This document shows positions 3,443 through 16,552 of a stretch of DNA of 62,336 bases, piece by piece. The DNA is from Roseofilum reptotaenium CS-1145 (GTDB lineage Bacteria; Cyanobacteriota; Cyanobacteriia; Cyanobacteriales; Desertifilaceae), in assembly GCF_028330985.1 (NCBI RefSeq), contig NZ_JAQMUE010000086.1, positions 1-62,336 of the forward strand, in the 5' to 3' direction. Under the pieces are notes generated by a model that was not told the DNA's origin, searched no databases, and saw nothing but the letters and a program-made list of their open reading frames with translations. Position 1 is the first letter of the stretch. The number at the start of each line of letters is the position of its first letter. The translations under genes and the position numbers were made by a program.

Positions 3443-5317
3443 CTATTGTTTGTGAAAATAATCGTAAATATTCTGTGCTAAATTAGGGCCGATTCCGGGG
3501 ACTTGTTGGAGTTTTTTGGTGCTGGCTTGGGCGATCGCATCTAAAGACGGAAAATGTTTGTATAATTGCTTCTGTCGCTCATACCCTAATCCAGGAATTC
3601 CATCTAAGCGGGAACTGAGGAGGCGATCGCCCCGTTGTTGACGATGGAAGCTTACGGCAAAGCGATGGGATTCATCTCGAACCCGACGCAGTAACTGCAC
3701 ACCGGGTTGATCGCGATCGGTAGGAAGAGGAGCAGAATCGCCCGGTTGAAACAGTTCTTCCTCCTGTTTGGCTAAACTAATCACTCGCAAATCTTGTAAT
3801 AGTTCTAACTTAGAGAGGACAGCAACCACCGCAGATAACTGACCTTTTCCTCCATCAATGAGCAGTAAGTCGGGAAAATCTGGGTTTCCTTGACGGGGAA
3901 GTTGGGCATTATCCAGAAAGGGGCGAAATCGACGGTTAATGACTTCTGCAAGGGAGGCAAAATCATCAGAATGACCGGGTTGGACTGCTGGATTTTTGAT
4001 CTTATAATGGCGATAATATTGTTTCGCTGGCATTCCATTAATAAAGACCACCTGAGACCCCACCGCATTTGACCCTTGCAGATGGGAAATATCGTAACCT
4101 TCGATGCGTCGGGGAAGTTCGGGTAAGTTGAGGATGGTGGCTAAATCAGTGAGACTTTGTTGGGCGCGATCGCCAAATTTTTGCATCCGTTTTAGCTCGG
4201 CTTGGGCATTGCGATAAACTAAATCAATCAGTTCTGCCTTACTTTGCCGTTGCGGAACATGAATCGTAACTTTCTTGCCTTTGTGATTGTGCAGAAATTC
4301 TAGCAGAAACTCGGCATCTTGTAAAGGGTGTTGCACTAAAATTTCCGTCGGAATTTCCAGGGGTTCAGCACTTTGATAATGCTCCTCTAAAACCCGTTGT
4401 AAAATTGACCCTGGTTCCCCAGATTGGGCAAAGAACCCCAACCGACCCACCAATTTACCTGCACGAATTTGGAATAACTGAATGCAGCAGCGTTCTGCGT
4501 CCTGTTCCAGGGCGATCGCATCCCGTGAAACGCGATCGTCCGATAAATCGACCTTTTGACTCGCATTTAATGCTTGCAACCCTTGAATTTGATCTCGCAA
4601 TTGAGCCGCCAATTCAAAATTGAGAGCCTCTGACGCTTCCTGCATTTGCTGCCTCAATTCCTCCACCAACTCAGCCGTTCTCCCTTGAAAGATCATGGCA
4701 ATTTTTTGCATCATTTGCCGATAATCCTCCACCTCAACCAACTGTTGACAAACTCCCGGACAGCGCCCAATATCATAATTCAAACAAGTGCGGTCTTTAT
4801 ACAAGGGTTTCGGTCGCTGGCGTTGGGGAAAAATTCGCTTAATCAAATCCAATGTTTGCCGCAATTGTCCCCCGTCCACATAGGGGCCATAGTATTTATC
4901 TTTCGGGTTTCTGGGTTTGCGCTTGCGGGTAATAAAAATATGGGGATAGTTATCCGACCAAGTAATACAGACATAGGGATACTTTTTATCATCCTTAAGT
5001 AGGACATTAAATCGCGGTTGATGACGCTTAATCAGCGTCGATTCTAGAGCCAGCGCTTCCGCTTCTGTATCCGTAATAATCCATTCAATATCACTGACTT
5101 TCCGTACCATTAAGGCAATGCGAGCATTATGGCCGGTAAAATCGCGAAAGTAGGAGCGAACACGGGTTCTTAATTGTTTCGATTTACCGATATATAAAAT
5201 CGAGTTCCCCGCATCTTTCATTAAGTAAACCCCAGGTAGTTTGGGGATTTCTTGTAAATACTGCTGTAAGCGCTCTGGATTTTCACAGAGGAACTCTGAG
5301 TTGTTCTGATTGGTCAT
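3443..5317 (-). CDS. uvrC: Excinuclease ABC subunit C UvrC
   Basis: UvrC makes the two incisions on either side of a DNA lesion in nucleotide excision repair, together with UvrA and UvrB. The domains are in order: GIY-YIG nuclease ([20 protein letters not shown] near the start), Cys cluster region, UVR helix pair contacting UvrB (about residue 200), RNase-H-like endonuclease core ([26 protein letters not shown]) and a helix-hairpin-helix C-terminus ([19 protein letters not shown]). I chose the ATG at 5317, giving 624 residues starting MTNQNNSEF. The extra 17 codons upstream read through a REP-like palindrome and are unlikely to be coding. Confidence 0.95.
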
Positions 5318-7678: not shown

Positions 7679-8962
7679 TTGCAATCTGTCGATAGAAGAA
7701 TCGTGATTGAACAGCAGTTATATCAAGACGGGATCAAAAAGGCAAATCAAAAGGATTTTGAGGGAGCGATCGCCATTTTCAATGAAGCAATTACCCTCAA
7801 TCCAGATTGGGGAGATCCTTACTATCAAAGGGGTTTAGCCTACTTTGACTTGGGTCAAATCTATCCAGCTATCTCTGATTATAGCCAAGCGATTGAGCGC
7901 GATCGCTACCATAGTCAAGCTTACTATGCCCGCGCCCTTGCCCGCATTAGCCTCAAAAACCTTCCTGGAACCCTGGAAGACATCAATTGGGTGATTCAGC
8001 TCAAACCTGGGTTTGCTGCTGCGTATCAACTGCGAGGGACGGTTGAGCGCAAACGGGGCAACCTTCAAAGTGCGATCGCCAACTTTAAACAAGCTGCCCA
8101 CCTTTATTTAGACCAAAAAGACAAAGATAACGCCAGTCGTTGTTTAGCCCTGATTCAACAAATTAAACCCAAAGAAGATGCCCCCCAACTAACCTCTCCA
8201 TCCCTACCTTTAGTCACCCAATCTGACTTTTATCAAAACCTCATTGACAAAGCGCAACAGGGAAAACCCCAAGAAGCTAGAGAAGAATTGAATTGGATTT
8301 TAAAAACCGATCCCAATGACGCTCGTGCCTACGGTTGTCGGGGAATTATTTATTGTCAACAGGGGAACTATCAAAGCGCTATTTCTGACTTTAACCGCGC
8401 CCTTTCTCTTAACTTTAAAGACCCGATTATTTATCGCAACCGAGGCAAAGCTCGCGCCCAGATTGGCGATCATTTAGGCGCGATTGAAGACTTTAATCAA
8501 GCGTTGAATACTGAGAGTAACGATCCCCTGATTTACATTGCCAGAGGAGATGCATATCGCTTAACCAGTCATTACGCTCAAGCTATCCAAGACTATAGCG
8601 CCGCCCTCAATCTCGATCCTAATAATGGCACAGCCTATTATAGTCGAGGACTTGCCCATGCTTGCTTAGAAGAAATGGGTGAAGCCATTGCCGACTATCA
8701 ACGGGCAGCGAGTAAGTTTTGCGAACAAGAAAAATGGTCAGAGTATGATCGGTCCCTATCCCAATTGAAGAAACTGCAAAAAGCCGTCCCTCAAACCAAC
8801 ACTATTCAACTCGAATCTTTGCTACGTCAACGGTTATTGCGTTTAGTAGGAGGACATTGGGAAATTGCCCAACGGCTGATCGATCAAGCGAAGCAAGATT
8901 ATCCTGGAATGGCACAAGAGTGGTATCTGGAGAAAGTGATTACAGATTTAGGGCAGAAGTAA
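7679..8962 (+). CDS. TPR-repeat protein
   Basis: A 427-residue soluble protein made largely of tetratricopeptide repeats in two blocks (about residues 10-140 and 180-340), with typical segments such as AIAIFNEAITLNPDWGDPYYQ and AISDFNRALSLNFKDPIIYR. TPRs mediate protein-protein contacts; no enzymatic domain is visible. The C-terminal 70 residues (LLRQRLLRLVGGHWEIAQRL) resemble a small tail found in other cyanobacterial TPR proteins. The longest frame begins with TTG at 7679, and a GTG nearby is an alternative. A TATAAT sequence at 7625-7630 could be its -10 element. A REP copy begins 19 bp after the stop. Confidence 0.75.
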   Translation: MQSVDRRIVIEQQLYQDGIKKANQKDFEGAIAIFNEAITLNPDWGDPYYQRGLAYFDLGQIYPAISDYSQAIERDRYHSQAYYARALARISLKNLPGTLEDINWVIQLKPGFAAAYQLRGTVERKRGNLQSAIANFKQAAHLYLDQKDKDNASRCLALIQQIKPKEDAPQLTSPSLPLVTQSDFYQNLIDKAQQGKPQEAREELNWILKTDPNDARAYGCRGIIYCQQGNYQSAISDFNRALSLNFKDPIIYRNRGKARAQIGDHLGAIEDFNQALNTESNDPLIYIARGDAYRLTSHYAQAIQDYSAALNLDPNNGTAYYSRGLAHACLEEMGEAIADYQRAASKFCEQEKWSEYDRSLSQLKKLQKAVPQTNTIQLESLLRQRLLRLVGGHWEIAQRLIDQAKQDYPGMAQEWYLEKVITDLGQK

Positions 8963-8980
8963 AGCGATCGCCTGAGGACA

Positions 8981-9047
8981 AGAAACCGGGTTTGTATCTA
9001 GTCTGTCGCTTTGATGTGGAGGGGATAGCAAACCCGGTTTCTGAGGC
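8981..9047 (+). repeat. 67-bp REP element, copy 1
   Basis: The element has 14-bp perfect inverted ends (AGAAACCGGGTTTG and its complement) around a loop containing CTGTCGCTTTGATG and GGGGATAGC, and ends in GAGGC. It lies 24 bp upstream of the RAYT gene. Two other copies of exactly the same length lie at 9687-9753 and 13005-13071 in the same orientation. Confidence 0.9.
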
Positions 9048-9071
9048 CCTCATTACTGGTAGTATGGAAGA

Positions 9072-9638
9072 ATGCCCTATCGTCAAATTCGGTTTCAGGA
9101 AGGTTGCTACTACCACGTATATAATCGCGGCAACGACCGACAACCTATTTTCTACAACCGGGACAACTATCTCTACTTTTTGCGCCAGTTTCGCCGTTAC
9201 TTCATTCAACCCCGCGCGCTAGATCTGGTTGCCTATTGCCTGATGCCGAACCACTATCACTTCTTGGTTTACTTGCATCAAGCCAACTTCTCGAAACGGA
9301 TGCAGCGGTTTGCCTTATCCTATACGAAAACCATGAATAATCGCTATAAGCGCGTTGGTTCCTTATTTCAAGGACGGTTTCAGGCGATATTAGTGGATAG
9401 CGATCGCTATTTAGCCAATCTAACTCGCTATATTCACCTGAATCCCGTGCGCGCCAACTTAGTCGAGTCCGCCGCAGATTGGGAGTTTTCCAGTTATCCC
9501 GAATATCTACAACTGCGCCGTGGCACCTTACCGCAATGTGAAATCGTCGGCTCCCTGTTCGAGTCCCCGAGTGCCTATCGGGAGTTTGTCGAAGAAGGAG
9601 AACGGGAAAATGCGATCGACCATCTCCTCTTTGACTAA
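9072..9638 (+). CDS. REP-associated tyrosine transposase (RAYT)
   Basis: A 188-residue Y1/HUH-type single-strand DNA transposase related to IS200/IS605 TnpA. The HUH metal motif is LMPNHYHFLVY with H61 and H63; the candidate catalytic tyrosine is about Y120 in RYIHLNPVRANLV. The N-terminal EGCYYHVYNRGN motif is characteristic of the RAYT (Y1_Tnp) family. RAYTs are normally single-copy domesticated transposases that act on REP hairpins. Here the gene is bracketed by 67-bp REP copies at 8981 and 9687, the classic REPtron arrangement. The reading frame is intact, with ATG at 9072. Confidence 0.92.
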   Translation: MPYRQIRFQEGCYYHVYNRGNDRQPIFYNRDNYLYFLRQFRRYFIQPRALDLVAYCLMPNHYHFLVYLHQANFSKRMQRFALSYTKTMNNRYKRVGSLFQGRFQAILVDSDRYLANLTRYIHLNPVRANLVESAADWEFSSYPEYLQLRRGTLPQCEIVGSLFESPSAYREFVEEGERENAIDHLLFD

Positions 9639-9686
9639 GAAACCGCGTGGCGAGGCGAGCGAGGCAAGAAACCGGGTGGCGAGGCG
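9637..9686 (+). repeat. Tandem truncated REP left ends
   Basis: Directly after the RAYT stop codon the REP left end is repeated twice in degenerate short form: AAGAAACCGCGTGGCGAGGC, then AAGAAACCGGGTGGCGAGGC, before the full copy at 9687. The units are about 22-28 bp long. They suggest repeated end processing or slippage at this REP. Confidence 0.65.
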
Positions 9687-9753
9687 AGAAACCGGGTTTG
9701 TGCCTAACCTGTCGCTTTGATGCGAAGGGGATAGCAAACCCGGTTTCTGAGGC
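9687..9753 (+). repeat. 67-bp REP element, copy 2
   Basis: The copy has the same 14-bp arms, the same length and the same orientation as copies 1 and 3; only a few loop positions differ. It ends 52 bp before the ATG of the CHAT gene and may affect its 5' untranslated region. Confidence 0.9.
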
Positions 9754-9805
9754 CCCCGTGAGGCCCCACGATAGACTCGAAACAGAGCAACCCACCAGTA
9801 TCGTC

Positions 9806-12800
9806 ATGGATGAAGAACGGCTAGAGGCTTACCTGAACTTGATTCGAGAACTGCTGAAGTGTCCCAACGGTGAGGAAGGACGGATCTTGCAGGAGAACCG
9901 GGAACTGGTGGATGCCGAGTTTCTCCAGGTCTGCGCAACCATCGGCGAGCAGATGGCAGAAGAAGGAAGGGAGAATGAGGCGCGGTTTTTGCAGGAGTTG
10001 GTGCGGGTGCTGGGACAGGGGAGGAACCGGGAAGGAGCAACGCCAGAAGATTATTTCCAGTTCTTATTGGAAGTATTAGCGACTTTAGATAGTAGCGGAG
10101 ATCCAAACGTGGTTTATCCGCTCTTGCAACAGAACTTAGATAGATTCGATTTAACATTAGCTGAGAGCTTGCGAGCTTGGGTGAGTCAAACTCTGGAGTA
10201 CATGGAACTAGAACAAGCCCAGAGTATTGCTGCAGGTCTTGGAAATTTCGGTAATTTAATCAAAGATTGTCCATTAGGCAGTCGTGCGGAGAATATCGAA
10301 CATGCCATTGTCGCTTACCAACTAGCCTTGGAAATTTATACTCCGCAACAGTTTCCTCAAGAGTGGGCAGGAATCCAAAATAATCTGGCAAATGCCTACT
10401 GTGAGAGCATCCGAGGAGAGCCGGCCGAGAATATCGAACATGCTATTGTCGCTTACCAACTGGCCTTGGAAATTTATACCCCACAACAGTTTCCTCAAGA
10501 GTGGGCAGGGACTCAAAATAATCTGGGAGATGCCTACAGAAACCGCATCCGGGGGGAGCGTGCGGAGAATATCGAAAATGCGATCGCTGCTTTCCAACTG
10601 GCCCTACAAGTAAGAACCCGTGAAGCCTTTCCTCAAGACTGGGCAAGAACCCAACATTATCTGGCTATTGCCTACTGTGAGCGCATCCGGGGGGAGCGGG
10701 CCGAGAATATCAAAAATGCGATCGCCGCTTGTCAACTGGCCCTACAAGTAAGAACTCGTGAAGCCTTTCCTCAAGAGTGGGCAAATACCCAAATTTGTTT
10801 AGGAGCTGCTTACTCTAAACGCATCCGGGAAGAACCCAGTGAGAACTTGGAGCAAGCAATCTCTTTGTATCAAGAAGTCCTTCAGGTATATGATCGCCAG
10901 GTTTTTCCTGAACGATGGGCAATGACCCAAAATAATCTGGCAGTAGCTTACTCAGACCGCATCCGGGGGGGGCGAGCGGAGAATATAGAAAAAGCGATCG
11001 CCGCTTACCAACTGGTACTGGAAGTATATACCCAGAAACAGTTTCCCCAAGAGTGGGCAGGAACCCACCATAATCTGGGATCGGTTTACTACGCCCGCAT
11101 CCTGGGAGAGCGGGTGGAGAATCTCGAACTTGCGATCGGCTGTTATCGTGAAGCTCTAGAAGTGACAACCCGCGCTGCCTTTCCCCAAAAACATGCAGAT
11201 ACCTTGTTTACTCTGGGTCTGGCCTATCGAGACCTGGGACAGCTTGCGGATGCCTACTCTGTCTTTACCCAAGCTATCGATACCGTGGAAGAAATACGCC
11301 AGGGAATTATCGTTGGTGGCGATGGGGATAAACAAAAACTCGCCGAAGAATGGCAAAGTCTCTATCGCAATACTATCGAAGTTTGCTTGGAGCGCGAAGA
11401 CTGGACTGGTGCTCTAGAATATGCCGAGCGCAGCAAGGCCCGCAACCTGGTGGAGCTGCTGGCCGCCACTAAGTTGCAACCGGAAAACATTCCGGAAGAC
11501 CTCTGGCACCGCTACCGCGACCTCTATCAGCAATGGTGGAAACTGCAACAAATGGAGGACTCCCGCAGCAGCGCCGCACCGGATAGCATCACGGAAACCC
11601 CTACGGCCAAACTCCGCACCCTGCGCCAGCAACTGGATCGCTTAATTGACGAAGAAATAACGCCCCACGACCCCAAGTTCCGCTACAGTCAACAGATTAC
11701 TCCCATTACCTATAGGGATATCCAAGGCCTGGTTAACCCGAAAACCGTCCTCGTCGAGTGGTACATCACTTACAAAGGTATCCACAGTTTCATCGTCACT
11801 CATCAAGGAACCCACCCCCAAGTCCTGACCACAAACCCGGACGCACCCGAGCGCTTGGATGCACTGCAAGAGGACTATCTGGAACACTATCTACGGCGTG
11901 CGGAAGACTGGCAAACCCAGTTACCCCACTATCTGCAAGAATTATCCGACTTGCTGGAGGTTCCTACCCTGCTGGCCGCTATTCCCAAGTCCTGCGAGCA
12001 ACTCATTCTGGTTCCCTATCGCGCCTTGCACCTGTTTCCCCTGCACGCCTTACCCCTGGGCGACTGTATTCTCAGCGACCATTTCCCCGAAGGCATCCGC
12101 TACGCACCCAGCAGCCAAATTTTACAACTCTCTTTGCAGGACAATGCTCCCGTTGCCAATAGCCGGGACAATGAGAACCATGAGGTATTTTTCGCCCTGC
12201 AAAACCCCACCGCAGACCTGGAGTATACCGACCTAGAAGTGGAAGCCATTCAAACTGTCTTCACCGCTCCCACTATCCTGAAACAAGATAAGGCCACGAA
12301 AACCGAGTTCGACAACCGCCAACCCCAGCTCGCCACCACCAATATCGCCCATTTCGCCTGCCACGGCTATTTTAACTTTAATAACCCGCGCAGCTCGGGC
12401 TTAATTCTCGCCGGTTCCCAACTCTCGGATACGGAAGACCCGGAAACGGCAAAAGAGGGCAGTGCCGACCTCTCCCCAGCCATCCGCTCCCGTCGCGGCA
12501 CGTTCGATGCGGATAAATGCCTCATTCTCCCGGAAATCTTTAACCTGCGCTTGCCCCAATGTCGCTTAGTGGTGCTTTCCGCTTGCGAAACCGCTATTAC
12601 CGATATCAGCACCACCACGGACGAATATATCAGTATCCTGGCCGCCTTTTTCTTCGCGGGTTCCCGCCACGTCCTGGGAACCCTCTGGGCCGTGAACGAT
12701 ATCTCGACGGCGGTGTTTATGGTGCGCTTCTACGAAACCTTGTTCGCGAAACCGTCTCCTCCGGTTACGTTGGCGCTGAAACAGACGCAAGACTGGATGC

Positions 12801-12967
12801 GCGAGGTCACGGTTGCTCGGTTGCAAGACTGGGCCCGGGGTTGTTCTCTGCTCTCGGAAACCGGAAAAGCTAGGATCGTCGGTCGGTTTGCCTGGGGATA
12901 TACCGCCGACTACGAACCCTACACCCATCCCTATCATTGGGCGGCGTTCTGCGTCACGGGACAATGA
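9806..12967 (+). CDS. TPR-CHAT domain protein (caspase-like peptidase)
   Basis: A 1053-residue protein with an N-terminal helical region, about seven TPR units of 46 residues (each starting AENIE.AI.AYQLAL and containing FPQEWA), and a C-terminal CHAT domain. The CHAT catalytic dyad is visible: His about residue 853 in HFACHG and Cys about residue 927 in VVLSACETA. CHAT proteases are caspase-hemoglobinase-fold enzymes; TPR-CHAT proteins include Craspase (TPR-CHAT) and other conflict-system proteases. I chose the ATG at 9806 (MDEERLEAYL), because the upstream frame reads through REP copy 2. Two same-strand unknown genes follow. The target protein is unknown; a link to them is inference. Confidence 0.88.
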   Translation: MDEERLEAYLNLIRELLKCPNGEEGRILQENRELVDAEFLQVCATIGEQMAEEGRENEARFLQELVRVLGQGRNREGATPEDYFQFLLEVLATLDSSGDPNVVYPLLQQNLDRFDLTLAESLRAWVSQTLEYMELEQAQSIAAGLGNFGNLIKDCPLGSRAENIEHAIVAYQLALEIYTPQQFPQEWAGIQNNLANAYCESIRGEPAENIEHAIVAYQLALEIYTPQQFPQEWAGTQNNLGDAYRNRIRGERAENIENAIAAFQLALQVRTREAFPQDWARTQHYLAIAYCERIRGERAENIKNAIAACQLALQVRTREAFPQEWANTQICLGAAYSKRIREEPSENLEQAISLYQEVLQVYDRQVFPERWAMTQNNLAVAYSDRIRGGRAENIEKAIAAYQLVLEVYTQKQFPQEWAGTHHNLGSVYYARILGERVENLELAIGCYREALEVTTRAAFPQKHADTLFTLGLAYRDLGQLADAYSVFTQAIDTVEEIRQGIIVGGDGDKQKLAEEWQSLYRNTIEVCLEREDWTGALEYAERSKARNLVELLAATKLQPENIPEDLWHRYRDLYQQWWKLQQMEDSRSSAAPDSITETPTAKLRTLRQQLDRLIDEEITPHDPKFRYSQQITPITYRDIQGLVNPKTVLVEWYITYKGIHSFIVTHQGTHPQVLTTNPDAPERLDALQEDYLEHYLRRAEDWQTQLPHYLQELSDLLEVPTLLAAIPKSCEQLILVPYRALHLFPLHALPLGDCILSDHFPEGIRYAPSSQILQLSLQDNAPVANSRDNENHEVFFALQNPTADLEYTDLEVEAIQTVFTAPTILKQDKATKTEFDNRQPQLATTNIAHFACHGYFNFNNPRSSGLILAGSQLSDTEDPETAKEGSADLSPAIRSRRGTFDADKCLILPEIFNLRLPQCRLVVLSACETAITDISTTTDEYISILAAFFFAGSRHVLGTLWAVNDISTAVFMVRFYETLFAKPSPPVTLALKQTQDWMREVTVARLQDWARGCSLLSETGKARIVGRFAWGYTADYEPYTHPYHWAAFCVTGQ

Positions 12968-13004
12968 GCGGGGGGCCTCGGGGGGGTTGAGAAACCCAAG
13001 AACA

Positions 13005-13071
13005 AGAAACCGGGTTTGTGCCTCATCTGTCGCTTTGATGCGGAGGGGATAGCAAACCCGGTTTCTGAGGC
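13005..13071 (+). repeat. 67-bp REP element, copy 3
   Basis: The third copy of the REP family lies 37 bp after the CHAT stop codon, in the same orientation as copies 1 and 2. Copies 2 and 3 therefore bracket the CHAT gene. It may also act as a hairpin terminator or mRNA 3' stabiliser. Confidence 0.9.
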
Positions 13072-13134
13072 ACCCCGTTTCTCGCCTGTCGCGGGGATTA
13101 TAATTGTTGTTAATTTGGTATTTTGCGTTGACCC

Positions 13135-13482
13135 ATGAATCCAGAAGAGATTATTCAAGCCTTTCTCAATGTTTGGGAAACTAATCCTAATGACATTTTT
13201 ACCACGTCTGGCGCGATCGCCGGTTTAGAAGAACTCAACGATATGGCGATCGCATCGGCAACCGACTCTAATACCGTATTTGTGGATAAGCTAGGTAAAT
13301 GGTGCGCGCAGTATCCGAAGTTAACCGATGAGATATTTGCCGAAGCGGAAAACCAACGCAAGTTTAAACTGAAGAATAATATTCCCGAACCGGAAACCGC
13401 GCCGAAAAAACCGGACAAAACTCTAGATAACCTTTATCCGAAAATTCCAAGAAGTCTTCGCGATCGCCTGCCGAAATCCTAA
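13135..13482 (+). CDS. Small uncharacterised protein
   Basis: A 115-residue protein that I do not recognise. Residues 1-80 look like a compact helical domain (MNPEEIIQAFLNVWETNP, then ELNDMAIAS...FVDKLGKWCAQYP). The last 35 residues are Lys/Pro-rich and probably disordered, ending in YPKIPRSLRDRLPKS. It lies between the CHAT gene and a membrane-anchored protein, 30 bp upstream of the latter, so these two are probably an operon. It could be an adaptor or an effector-associated domain, but that is a guess from context only. Confidence 0.6.
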   Translation: MNPEEIIQAFLNVWETNPNDIFTTSGAIAGLEELNDMAIASATDSNTVFVDKLGKWCAQYPKLTDEIFAEAENQRKFKLKNNIPEPETAPKKPDKTLDNLYPKIPRSLRDRLPKS

Positions 13483-13512
13483 TCTCCAATTTACCCTATC
13501 CATGTTGCTCCC

Positions 13513-15012
13513 ATGTCCTCGGAACCCTATCTGCTCGCTCCCAATATTTACCTGTTTGCCTATCAGTTGTGTCAGAAAAAGAAGAATGGCGAGTTTTTGG
13601 GACAAGATGATGAGTTTTGGCAAGAGTGCAACGGTCTGCTAAAGCCGTTTGACGTTAAGATAACCGATAAGCTGGATGCGGATAAATTAAAGAAGCCATT
13701 GAGTCGTCGCGATCGCGCAGTTTTAGCGGATAAGTATCGACGGGCGATCGCATTCCCAGACCCAAATCTCCAGACCGAAACGCCAGCAACATTACTTTCG
13801 GGTTCCGTCCAACCCTGGAAAATCAAAGATAGCTATGGCTTGCTATTCAATTACGGTTATGACGACGAACAAGAGCCACTCCCAAAGGTAAGCTTATCCG
13901 AGATAAAAGATAAATTAAGACCCAATTCTATTTTACATCATTTCCAGTCCAAAAATCCATCTATTTTTCTCGGAAATACGGTACTCTTGACTGCTTATGT
14001 TCCCACGGTTAACAAACAGCACGATCGCGATTACTTGAACGACTTAGCGGATCAGTGTTTTACCGGATTGTTTGCTGGCGAGGATTTGACATTATGCGAT
14101 CGCGGCGAGTTATTTGGCAACCCAATATTCGCTTACGAAAACCGCAGCAAAGAAAAAGGCGATCGCTATCTCCTGATTTGGCTCTTCCGCGACGAACAAG
14201 CGCAAACCTCAGTGAATGACTGCTTGGATAGTATTTCCGATCTATTGTTCTATCGCACAAAAATCGCGAAAGGCTTTGCCGATAGCCGCCTTATTTATCA
14301 AGTTCTGAATAACGGCTATGAGACTCTGGGAGAAACCTTAGACAACCTAGACGAAACCTTACAAAATCGAAAACCCGATCGGTTAGAACCCAAGGAACTA
14401 GAAGACTTTAAACAGAAGCTAATTTTTCTCACTGGGGAATCGTTACCCTATACCCGTACTTTGCGCCTCATGGAAGATTTTGGCAATACGATTAAAACCA
14501 ATTTGCATAACTATCGGCATACCTTAAAAGAGATTAGCGAGACTTTAGAGATCGAACCGAAAAACATGGGACTCTTGCACGAGTTTGCGGAAGATATTGC
14601 CCCCTATTTCGAGCAGCAAATTGCCACAAATTTCAGGTATTTTGCCGACGGTACGGATTTAGTCGATCGCGCGATCGCCACAATTCGCGGTTTAGTTGAA
14701 ATTCAACAAGCGGAAAGCGATCGCAAGCTACAGCAGCAAAACCAAGCTTTGCAAGACCATATCCAGGCGATCGGGGTGGGTATCGGTGCGGGGGCGATCG
14801 CCGCTTCTAGTTCCACGTTAATCTTTGAACAACAACGGATGACATTCCCCATTTTGAGCAAAAATCCGGGAACATCTCCCCATCCCTTTGTCATTGCTGT
14901 CTTGCTCAGTTTCACCTTTGCTGTCGGATTTTGGGCACTGGCAAAATGGGTTTTACCCCCCATATTGCGAATATTTTCTCAAAACGAATCCTCTGATGAA
15001 TCCAAACATTAA
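13513..15012 (+). CDS. Uncharacterised protein with C-terminal coiled coil and two membrane helices
   Basis: A 499-residue protein of unknown family. The first 350 residues are soluble and mixed alpha/beta. Residues about 355-425 form a long helical segment ending in EIQQAESDRKLQQQNQALQ. Two hydrophobic stretches follow: AIGVGIGAGAIAASSSTLIF (about 425-445) and FVIAVLLSFTFAVGFWALAK (about 465-485), with a charged tail. A long helix followed by two C-terminal membrane helices resembles CorA-like topology, but no GMN motif is visible. It is downstream of a CHAT protease and a small protein, so it could be a membrane effector; this is inference. Confidence 0.6.
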   Translation: MSSEPYLLAPNIYLFAYQLCQKKKNGEFLGQDDEFWQECNGLLKPFDVKITDKLDADKLKKPLSRRDRAVLADKYRRAIAFPDPNLQTETPATLLSGSVQPWKIKDSYGLLFNYGYDDEQEPLPKVSLSEIKDKLRPNSILHHFQSKNPSIFLGNTVLLTAYVPTVNKQHDRDYLNDLADQCFTGLFAGEDLTLCDRGELFGNPIFAYENRSKEKGDRYLLIWLFRDEQAQTSVNDCLDSISDLLFYRTKIAKGFADSRLIYQVLNNGYETLGETLDNLDETLQNRKPDRLEPKELEDFKQKLIFLTGESLPYTRTLRLMEDFGNTIKTNLHNYRHTLKEISETLEIEPKNMGLLHEFAEDIAPYFEQQIATNFRYFADGTDLVDRAIATIRGLVEIQQAESDRKLQQQNQALQDHIQAIGVGIGAGAIAASSSTLIFEQQRMTFPILSKNPGTSPHPFVIAVLLSFTFAVGFWALAKWVLPPILRIFSQNESSDESKH

Positions 15013-15071
15013 ATCAGTGGTCATTGCCACCGGAGGAGAGCGATCGCCTTTCGGCTGTCGCCGATATATTC

Positions 15072-15107
15072 ATGTCGCGAAGCAAAACGTTCGATTCGCG
15101 ATGACAT
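15072..15107 (+). terminator. Hairpin after the membrane-protein gene
   Basis: ATGTCGCGAA at 15072-15081 pairs with TTCGCGATGACAT at 15095-15107, with a small bulge. It lies 60 bp after the stop at 15012 and 34 bp before the next ATG. There is no clear T-tract, so the call is weak. Confidence 0.35.
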
Positions 15108-15140
15108 ATTATAATTGATTGAATAGACTTGATATGACTC

Positions 15141-16472
15141 ATGAACAATCCAATTAACCCCTCGAACATTGCCCAAAGTCTTGAGCCAGTCTTCACCGTC
15201 GCTCAAGAGTATTTAAACTTACTCTCTCCCAATTCTAATCTCAATCTCCAAACCGTTCAAACTCAAATTAATCAATTAATCGGATTACTGCCCTTAGTTC
15301 AAAGCAGTACGAATCCACTGTTTGTACAACAAGGATTAGGGCAAGCTTTGGGGCCCAATGGTCTAGGTTGGTTACAGGATATCAACGGTGATAATACGGT
15401 CAATAGCCAAGATATCACCATCACCTCAGCGCAAAATAATAATATTGCCTTTCAAGCCCAACTTAAACCTCCGATTCCTCCTTTAACCCTGACTCCTGAA
15501 ATTGCCAACAGTCTCGGTTTACCCAACTTGGGTATTAATGTGAATAGCTCTGCTTCCTTAGTCTTCGATGCACAATTACAGGCTAATTTCGGATGGGAAG
15601 GCGATCGCGGATTTTATGTCGATACTTCACCACCCAATGAACTAACCCTGCAAGTCAATGGGGGAGTTCTCAATGTTAGTCTGACCTCTCCCTTGGGTTC
15701 AGTGCAATTCATTCCTCAAAATAACTCCTCTAACCTGAGTGGAACTGTTCTGATTGATGTTCAAGATATCGATAGCAACCCTACAGATAATCGTATTTAC
15801 TTAACTGATTTATCCTCAATTGACCCCAATCAACTCCTCAATACTTTGATGGGAGCGAGCGCCACTAATCCCACTTTAAATGCCCTGATTAATGGGTTGA
15901 ATAGTCTTCTGACTCCTATTCCCCCAGGTACTCCAGGGAATGATGTAATTGAAGGCACACCCATTGGCGATCGCATTTTCGGTCTACAAGGCAACGATCT
16001 CCTCTTCGGTGGATTTGGCAATGATGAAATCTATGGTAATCCCGACAACGACACCCTTCTGGGCAATGCCAGTAATGACCTTATCCATGGGGGACAAGGG
16101 AACGATTGGCTCTATGGGGGGCAAGGAAATGATACTTTAAGCGGCGATAATGGCAACGATACCCTAAGCGGCGATCTAGGGGCAGATATCCTCACGGGAG
16201 GACTCGGAGCAGATGTCTTTATGCTACGCACCAGTGCCGCCGTCAATGATATTCTACAAGCTGATTTCATTACCGATTTTCAAGTGGGGATCGATCGCAT
16301 CGCCTTAACCCCAGGAACTAATCCCCAGAATCTCATCTTAGACGATATTGCTGGCAATACAGTCATTCGTCTGAGTGCCTCTGGCCCGATTCTCGGTATC
16401 ATCGGTAATGTGCCGCCCAATAGTTTAGAGGCCAATAGTCTTATCCCTATTGATATGGGAATGGTTTCCTAG
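15141..16472 (+). CDS. RTX-type calcium-binding protein
   Basis: A 443-residue protein. Residues 1-255 are a non-repeated domain containing a dockerin-like stretch (INGDNTVNSQDITI) and Asn/Ser-rich beta segments. From about residue 265 there are nine or so nonapeptide repeats of the GGxGNDxLx type (FGGFGNDEIYG, GGQGNDWLYG), which form a Ca2+-loaded beta roll. The C-terminal block DVFMLRTSAAVNDILQADFI resembles the type I secretion tail of other cyanobacterial RTX proteins. It has no N-terminal signal peptide, as expected for ABC type I export. The passenger role (adhesin, S-layer-like, enzyme) cannot be decided. Confidence 0.85.
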   Translation: MNNPINPSNIAQSLEPVFTVAQEYLNLLSPNSNLNLQTVQTQINQLIGLLPLVQSSTNPLFVQQGLGQALGPNGLGWLQDINGDNTVNSQDITITSAQNNNIAFQAQLKPPIPPLTLTPEIANSLGLPNLGINVNSSASLVFDAQLQANFGWEGDRGFYVDTSPPNELTLQVNGGVLNVSLTSPLGSVQFIPQNNSSNLSGTVLIDVQDIDSNPTDNRIYLTDLSSIDPNQLLNTLMGASATNPTLNALINGLNSLLTPIPPGTPGNDVIEGTPIGDRIFGLQGNDLLFGGFGNDEIYGNPDNDTLLGNASNDLIHGGQGNDWLYGGQGNDTLSGDNGNDTLSGDLGADILTGGLGADVFMLRTSAAVNDILQADFITDFQVGIDRIALTPGTNPQNLILDDIAGNTVIRLSASGPILGIIGNVPPNSLEANSLIPIDMGMVS

Positions 16473-16552
16473 CCTGAAATCCTCTTAGAGTTTGAGGGAT
16501 TCTTTGATATATTAAGAATTGTAAACTTTTTCCCCTTACCGCATAACTAGCC

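Follow-up and report, generated by a model that had tools for sequence, protein, structure and literature searches.

Can a RAYT move its own gene and the DNA beside it? A stretch of 62,336 nucleotides from Roseofilum reptotaenium CS-1145 (contig NZ_JAQMUE010000086.1; hereafter, the window) raises this question, because a RAYT and a TPR-CHAT gene stand there among three copies of a hairpin element. The preliminary description of the window proposed that the RAYT had helped to move neighbouring DNA and that the CHAT gene sits in a REP-bounded cassette. We compared the locus with those of other genomes. Our reading, which we consider probable, is that we are dealing with a REPtron, in which an intact RAYT is accompanied by REP doublets of its own, and that this REP-ended unit changes site and is linked to a mobile CHAT operon. 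The features are as follows.

7679..8962, + strand: TPR-repeat gene, the ancestral left neighbour, outside the putative mobile block (orthologs, G001 synteny)
8963..16507, no strand: segment that has no equivalent at the orthologous position of the related genome G001 (synteny edges 8961 and 16508)
8981..9047, + strand: REPIN-type hairpin copy 1, 5′ of the RAYT (copies 1 to 3: repeat search, genome pattern scan, folding)
9072..9638, + strand: RAYT (Y1/HUH transposase family), 188 aa, intact (PF01797, NF047646, alignment of 10 sequences)
9637..9688, + strand: two degenerate 23-nt tandem units with partial REP arms, immediately 3′ of the RAYT (repeat family)
9687..9753, + strand: REPIN-type hairpin copy 2, in the gap between RAYT and CHAT
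9806..12967, + strand: TPR-CHAT gene, 1053 aa (PF12770, E 3e-47; alignment with the G004 homolog)
13005..13071, + strand: REPIN-type hairpin copy 3, in the gap between CHAT and the next gene
13135..13482, + strand: g13135, small gene without known family (after CHAT in G004, 58% aa; in a G002 operon without RAYT, 43% aa)
13513..15012, + strand: g13513, gene without known family, the last one that the block shares with G004 (54% aa)

The RAYT gene and its hairpin elements

The RAYT open reading frame scored 46.4 bits with PF01797 and 84.3 bits with NF047646, a curated model of REP-associated transposases whose cut-off is 80. In an alignment of the window protein with nine homologs, H61-Y62-H63 and the Y motif YIHLNP (Y120) were invariant in 10/10 sequences. 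By the Y---NP motif given for class 2 in PMC6006769, the predicted catalytic tyrosine is Y120. The alignment also places NHYH at 60-63, FQ at 99-100 and YIHLNP at 120-125, as in the subclass 2.1 motifs NH[YF]H, FQ and Y[IV]HLNP of Table 1 in PMC6006769. Judged by these motifs, the RAYT is probably close to subclass 2.1, that is, TIRYT-like. An extra C-terminal HTH/DnaA-like domain is absent: Pfam detects only Y1_Tnp, over residues 10-122 of 188. The RAYT has one match in its own genome, where Y1 hits of all kinds number nine. A search of PHROGs returned one weak family with no function assigned. We rejected plasmid carriage, because all plasmid relatives of the RAYT (25 records) and of the CHAT protein (101 records) were less than 60% identical.

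As the preliminary description stated, the three elements share one orientation and 14-bp arms, and the positions of the open reading frames, with PF01797 and PF12770 hits, place the RAYT between copies 1 and 2 and the TPR-CHAT gene between copies 2 and 3. Each copy has perfect 14-bp arms (AGAAACCGGGTTTG / CAAACCCGGTTTCT) and a 34-nt loop, 62 bp in total; a trailing GAGGC gives the 67 bp described earlier. Compared with copy 1 over 73 nt, copy 2 is 86% identical and copy 3 is 92% identical; the three loops are 83-92% identical. Thus, "near-identical" is a generous description. When the three copies were folded, all six strands beat 200/200 shuffles (z -3.4 to -5.7). The window contains 16 arm matches with at most two mismatches, against 2.07 expected, and 16 was reached in 0/100 shuffles.

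Genome-wide, the exact paired-arm pattern occurs at 20 places (reversed control, 0), and the loops vary. The RAYT is therefore flanked by palindromic repeats that are themselves repeated in the genome, and the window elements show the REPIN arrangement of two inverted REPs around a less conserved spacer that forms a hairpin. The GT[AG]G guide tag is not the rule: GTRG stood within 8 nt of the foot in 2/18 elements (18 of the 20 with exact 13-nt arms were counted) and in 0/3 window copies. The window elements are REPINs without a GTAG tag.

The search of the genome that had been proposed for the 67-bp element gave a divided answer. The arms recur as the 20 exact pairs, and the complete element including the loop was found only at the three window places (E <= 0.001). 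Among elements with exact 13-nt arms, loop similarity averaged 84% in 9 near pairs, 58% in 181 far pairs and 54% after shuffling. One far group, on contigs C36 and C43, has a common loop type. Because the loop is private to the locus, recent dispersal explains the copies less well than local copying or homogenisation does. The recent activity suggested earlier thus gains little from loops that differ by 8-17% and are of a type seen nowhere else in the genome.

The copies may also be alike through gene conversion or local tandem-type duplication, without any action of the RAYT. This is a possible explanation, somewhat doubtful to us, and it is compatible with our reading of the RAYT itself. Loop similarity is mostly limited to neighbours, the REP slots of the G004 locus described below are also alike within that locus, and contig C43, which is 9.8 kb long and has no Y1 transposase hit, carries four paired elements that resemble one another. 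However, RAYT genes of several other genera have dense REP clusters on either side, which suggests a role of the RAYT.

The hairpins were also counted across other genomes. The 15-mer AGAAACCSGGTTTCT had at least 10 copies in 9/9 genomes with a full-length RAYT (at least ~60% identity, R. reptotaenium included), compared with 12/50 other genomes (Fisher p 2e-5, kinship ignored); the 50 "without" RAYT include G003, G022 and G023, whose RAYT is broken or more distant. Outside the family, it was abundant in 5/5 versus 6/44 genomes (p 2e-4, again ignoring kinship). Against our reading, the 15-mer is also abundant in G002, G005, G007-G009, G016, G036 and G051, none of which has a close RAYT. At the 72 of 80 RAYT loci with enough flanking sequence, hairpins of at least 14 bp stood on both sides in 36/72 and on at least one side in 59/72, compared with 8/254 single control windows. 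Where all three subclass 2.1 motifs were present, 9/22 loci had hairpins on both sides.

Sites of the RAYT in related species

We compared R. reptotaenium CS-1145 (G000) with three related species (G001, G003 and G004). At the DNA level, synteny with G001 breaks off at 8961. The gene at 7679..8962 has orthologs of 88-91% aa identity in G001, G002, G004 and G005 and of 63% in G003; in none of these five genomes do the ortholog and a close RAYT share a contig. At the place orthologous to 8963..16507, G001 has ~1.93 kb of other DNA. In G004, the order RAYT-CHAT-g13135-g13513 is also present, upstream of rplU, and this rplU site is uninterrupted in G000 (gap of 62 bp) and G001 (20 bp). The expectation that relatives would have an empty or different site was therefore borne out. 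G003 has a decayed REP-RAYT-CHAT remnant after an ftsW/rodA-like gene. In G001, REP-RAYT-REP stands beside a dihydroorotate dehydrogenase gene. There G000 has 342 bp of other DNA; since both genomes hold different DNA, this is not a clean empty site. Thus, related species have the RAYT, flanked on both sides by REPs, at non-orthologous sites. The CHAT-g13135-g13513 operon follows it in two species and a decayed CHAT piece does so in a third, at three different sites.

One pair of species shares just REP-RAYT-REP. The segment common to G001 and G004 (820 aligned bp, 92%) begins and ends at REPs: its edges lie 6 bp outside the 5′ REP and at the end of a 3′ REP arm, and beyond them only REPs cross-match. 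No CHAT match was found in the 19-kb RAYT locus of G001. The left edge of the insert in G004 lies ~190-265 bp outside the REP. Inspected by eye, the edges in G004 and G001 showed no target duplication, and the genomes compared yielded no transposition event or excision junction.

The kinship of the RAYTs conflicts with that of the species. G000 and G001 share 78% RAYT identity and 93% core DNA identity; G001 and G004 share 94.5% and 89%, respectively. The RAYT fragment of G003 is 91.5% identical to G000 over 117 nt, with 83% for the core. These core values, and the core comparison, come from one core region. The RAYT and core trees disagree, and forcing G000 and G001 together is disfavoured (AU p 0.025); this AU result is modest, and the RAYT row of G000 has an unusual composition. 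The core-tree branch that unites G000 and G001 has support of 92/96, below the tool's star. Because the sites differ, the G001/G004 segment is edged by REPs and RAYT kinship conflicts with species kinship, we propose that the REPtron relocates.

RAYT loci of further genomes were compared through matches of at least 100 nt, at most 40 per pair. Among the matches listed, those between the 15-kb loci of G010 and G041, which are congeners, are confined to the RAYT and its REP arrays. G044 has two RAYT copies with ~940 bp in common at 87%. These copies also share 274 bp, in inverted order, immediately outside one copy's 5′ REP; homology at that place therefore extends beyond the REP.

Mechanistically, the RAYT would nick single-stranded REP hairpins and copy REPINs, mostly into intergenic gaps close by, such as the one after CHAT. 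At times, it would move its own gene between REP ends. The CHAT operon may be an accessory conflict operon that passes from genome to genome in the manner of islands, and the REPtron would be linked to it. These comparisons suggest that genes of a kind generally held to be immobile may move in this genus.

Homologous exchange, or ordinary island transfer in which the RAYT is a passenger, could also account for the moves. In its full form, this alternative holds that the RAYT is domesticated and non-moving and is carried passively, that species exchange the CHAT block, a defence-type island, by other means and that the REPs are incidental. We consider it unlikely, for G001 has the RAYT and REPs with no CHAT match in its 19-kb locus, homology with G004 stops at REPs on both sides, REP-limited homology recurs in G010/G041 and G044 has a second copy. 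In its favour, no REP stands at the block's right end, and between G000 and G004 the three block genes that follow the RAYT are 54-64% identical (aa), against 91% for a core neighbour protein. Moreover, relatives' loci with a g13513 match and no RAYT match are common: in the 15 best non-RAYT loci of 30 rows, some of them ended by the contig, CHAT was present in 11 and REP arms (at most 2 mismatches in 15) in 8.

A bolder version of our reading, which we hold to be quite improbable, is that this RAYT clade is not settled or domesticated at all and still transposes its own ~0.8-kb REP-ended unit between sites and species, by one-ended or faulty events able to take along the neighbouring conflict operon. 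If so, a REPtron would be a minimal transposon with the capacity to carry defence genes.

The CHAT operon and the REP borders

The CHAT gene has a CHAT domain (PF12770, E 3e-47) after a TPR array (TPR_12, TPR_10). Its mechanical open reading frame begins at GTG 9647, inside repeat DNA. The G004 homolog (64% aa) aligns from residue 1 of the ATG 9806 start; this homology points to ATG 9806 as the likely start. PADLOC gave only a weak partial match for CHAT (BovA, 20.8 bits), and neither a Pfam (E 0.001) nor a PADLOC family (E 0.01) was found for g13135 and g13513.

In the preliminary description, CHAT may have been mobilised or duplicated by the RAYT as a REP-to-REP cassette between copies 2 and 3. 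REPs do flank CHAT in both G000 and G004 and the block stands at different sites, but we regard this model as very improbable, because the common segment continues past copy 3 through g13135 to g13513, the REP slots differ in type between the two genomes, CHAT operons occur at other sites without a RAYT and none of the loci examined contained a solo-CHAT cassette. Nor do the REPs form the outer borders of the moved DNA: copy 3 is internal to a block that runs to ~15012 and ends there without a REP, and the three REP slots of G004 carry a different, short-loop REP type. The REPs at these fixed slots may have been replaced or homogenised once the block had diverged between species. In a G002 CHAT operon without RAYT, a paired element stands just 5′ of CHAT. 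Thus, the CHAT gene is not set off as moved cargo by the REPs. Of the wider proposal that the RAYT helped to move neighbouring DNA, what stands is the RAYT-CHAT block at different sites in congeners and one REP-RAYT-REP segment with REP edges.

Two broader associations were rejected. RAYT-CHAT is not a general pairing: 0/80 RAYT loci from other genomes (the best 80 of 547 confirmed, many on short contigs) had a window-like CHAT gene (E<1e-10). Nor do REPs gather near CHAT genes in G000: 4/40 REP clusters lay within 5 kb of one of its 30 CHAT genes (32 hits merged), with 2.3 expected (P 0.20).

Relation to known systems

Cyanobacterial TPR-CHAT conflict operons combine a TPR array with a CHAT domain. 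The operon here has both, and G000 has 30 CHAT genes; unlike those operons, it adjoins a REPtron and its next two genes lack a Pfam or PADLOC family. IS200/IS605 elements share the Y1 catalytic family and a hairpin-ended unit at different sites. In contrast to them, the RAYT here is not present in multiple near-identical copies and scores as a REP-associated family.

The locus also resembles the RAYT (TnpAREP) REPtrons with REPINs described by Nunvar 2010 (PMC2817692) and by Bertels and Rainey 2011 (PMC3116915): a Y1 HUH gene is flanked by inverted, hairpin-forming REP doublets, whose copies occur throughout the genome and cluster close to the RAYT. The usual GT[AG]G tag sets those systems apart from this one. 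RAYTs have been described as domesticated transposases that spread REPs, with no movement of their own gene seen. In its account of RAYT sites, Nunvar 2010 (PMC2817692) reports no change of chromosomal location, whereas here the location differs among congeners. Quentin 2018 (PMC6006769) likewise states that evidence of mobility was lacking, while PMC3686654 mentions some RAYTs at novel sites. Because a RAYT or its remnant occupies four sites in four species of the genus, with REP-exact edges in one pair, self-mobility is directly testable.

TIRYTs and TIRtrons (Di Nocera 2013, PMC3733652) correspond to subclass 2.1, RAYT group 1, in Quentin 2018. The window RAYT resembles them in its three motifs and in flanking inverted repeats that are unrelated to GTAG REPs and occur as dimers or clusters; it differs in its length of 188 aa and in the lack of a C-terminal HTH detectable by Pfam. 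Near members of subclass 2.1, Quentin 2018 detected no REP-like sequences. In contrast, a palindrome family stands beside the gene and throughout the genome here, and has thus been shown for a RAYT close to that subclass.

The RAYT gene and its paired REP elements

The preliminary description placed three REP copies around a RAYT gene and a TPR-CHAT gene, and we confirmed the copies, with one shared orientation, in the window. The features are as follows (RAYT, TPR-CHAT, g13135 and g13513 are together called the block).

8981-9047: copy 1, REPIN-type hairpin (two inverted REP arms around a loop)
9072-9638: RAYT gene
9687-9753: copy 2
from ATG 9806 (likely start): TPR-CHAT gene; the mechanical ORF begins within repeat DNA
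13005-13071: copy 3
from 13135: gene g13135
from 13513: gene g13513
15141-16472: gene with RTX calcium-binding repeats (PF00353)

Each copy has perfect 14-bp arms, measures 62 bp from arm end to arm end and is trailed by GAGGC. Aligned with copy 1 over 73 nt, copy 2 is 86% identical and copy 3 is 92% identical. In DNA folds, all six strands of the copies were stabler than every one of 200 shuffles. The window contains 16 arm matches (two mismatches or fewer) versus 2.07 expected. In the genome, exact paired arms were found at 20 places and single arms at 80 places, as compared with 0 and 2 for the controls. In contrast, the whole element including the loop was found at only three places, all at this locus (E ≤ 0.001). 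Thus, of the 67-bp element, only the arms were recovered elsewhere. The mean loop identity was 84% in the 9 pairs within 10 kb, 58% in the 181 other pairs and 54% for shuffled loops; one exception is an element on contig C36, which has the loop type of four elements on contig C43. Because loops are alike mainly between neighbours, genome-wide recurrence is a property of the arms and the loop type is largely tied to a single locus. The preliminary description took the near-identity of the copies to imply recent activity; local copying or homogenisation fits the loop pattern better than recent genome-wide spread.

The RAYT ORF is intact, and its score in the curated model for REP-associated transposases exceeds the cut-off. 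In homologous loci of relatives, the gene is flanked by the same arms, as arrays in several. In two genomes with a more distant RAYT (G022 and G023), other palindromes occupy the corresponding places, and the same was observed in many of 80 RAYT loci from other genomes. Among the 72 of these with sufficient flank, 36 have hairpins of 14 bp or longer on both sides and 59 have one on at least one side (control, 8 of 254 single windows); the stems on the two sides have an 8-mer in common in 30 of the 36. Hairpins were present on both sides in 9 of 22 loci bearing all three motifs of subclass 2.1, a RAYT subclass to which ours is close. Across 59 genomes, the 15-mer arm occurs 10 times or more in all 9 genomes with a close RAYT (our own included) versus 12 of 50 without one (p = 2e-5, a value that ignores kinship). 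The arms belong to the RAYT. However, the 12 arm-rich genomes without a close RAYT count against strict RAYT dependence of the arms.

Sites and kinship of the RAYT

In earlier papers, no change of RAYT location on the chromosome is reported, flanking REPs vary between orthologs and new REPs arise near an acquired RAYT (PMC2817692); novel sites with suggested horizontal transfer are given for some RAYTs, and laterally transferred regions are described as lacking REPs (PMC3686654). Earlier work also describes REPINs (PMC3116915), TIRtrons (PMC3733652) and subclass 2.1, the last with no evidence of mobility (PMC6006769). No paper titled on REP-ended RAYT movement was among the literature matches listed, which covered few subscription titles.

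We compared this genome (G000) with relatives G001-G005, taking core identities from one core region. Between G000 and G001, identity is 93% in the core and just 78% in the RAYT; between G001 and G004, it is 89% in the core and 94.5% in the RAYT. A G003 RAYT fragment is 91.5% identical to that of G000 over 117 nt (core, 83%). Trees agree with this mismatch, although support for the core branch uniting G000 with G001 is 92/96 and the RAYT of G000 is of odd composition. An AU test against the grouping of the G000 and G001 RAYTs gave p 0.025. It is therefore unlikely that the RAYT was simply inherited vertically in this genus.

The RAYT or its remnant occupies four sites in four species, with CHAT or a CHAT piece beside it at three. 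G004 keeps the order REP-RAYT-REP-CHAT-REP-g13135-g13513 (78, 64, 58 and 54% amino acid identity to the window for the four genes), but with a gyrase/topoisomerase IV A-type gene on one side and rplU on the other. This site is uninterrupted except for 62 bp in G000 and 20 bp in G001; the same place holds other DNA in G002 (268 bp) and G005 (1.2 kb), and neither of these two genomes has a close RAYT. The G001 RAYT with its REPs adjoins a dihydroorotate dehydrogenase gene, a place holding 342 bp of other DNA in G000. In G003, a REP arm, RAYT ends with the middle gone and part of CHAT follow an ftsW/rodA-type gene. At this contig end (C45, L156 ~1778-2100), the decayed RAYT is fused to the CHAT fragment at a short GCGATCG-containing repeat, with a single REP arm adjacent.

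An empty site in relatives was proposed as a check. G001 lacks the segment 8963-16507 and keeps the neighbours (left TPR gene 91%, right ABC-2 gene 99% in amino acids), but ~1.93 kb of other DNA lies there (L116 3778-5707), including small PIN-, DUF2283- and DUF4258-like genes and two REP arms ~190 bp apart. This content suggests a variable spot. The RTX gene lies in the segment missing from G001, at its right-hand end, and has no match in the G004 block locus.

Edges of homology and the CHAT gene

The segment common to G001 and G004, which both have the short-loop REP type, is 820 aligned bp at 92% identity (751/820). It starts 6 bp outside the 5′ REP and ends at the end of a 3′ REP arm; beyond it, cross-matches are between REPs only. 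With the short-loop type in both, REP type and RAYT go together in these genomes. Between congeners G010 and G041 (15 kb), matches of at least 100 nt were restricted to REP arrays and the RAYT. Two RAYT copies in G044 have ~940 bp in common at 87%; because 274 bp are also common, in inverted order, outside one 5′ REP, this case is not REP-limited. Synteny between G000 and G001 ends at 8961, 20 bp short of copy 1, and no REP is at the right edge of the segment (16507). In G004, some 190-265 bp separate the left edge of the insert from the REP inside it, and the right edge has no REP.

TPR-CHAT is the next large gene after the RAYT. The proposal that REPs border a CHAT cassette was not supported: copy 3 is internal to the block, away from its end, and the three REP slots hold long-loop elements in G000 and short-loop elements in G004. 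We compared 15 loci that carry the last block gene and no RAYT match: 11 had a CHAT match and 8 had REP arms. In the G002 locus, a paired element lies 5′ of CHAT, and the gap that follows CHAT contains none. REP clusters were not enriched near CHAT genes in G000. We conclude that the CHAT operon is accessory and occurs at several sites, whether or not a RAYT is present; its RAYT-driven transport is possible but unproven. The preliminary description was right in observation and partly right in interpretation: what moves is best taken to be the REPtron (the RAYT gene with flanking REPs), with the CHAT gene as a linked neighbour.

G000 has 30 CHAT-domain genes (32 hits, split hits merged). Locus L157 (contig C43, 563-5146) holds a second TPR-CHAT gene, whose CHAT match carries a flag for one internal stop. 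Within ~2.3 kb upstream of it are four paired REP elements with a different loop type; no Y1 transposase match was found on this contig. Separately, G002 and G005 have dozens of matches to a dispersed repeat that is about 130-150 bp long and up to 98% identical (L113 ~1351-1504, 3699-3832 and 14400-14555). Among the matches listed, hardly any are in G000 and G001; the repeat is another high-copy small element.
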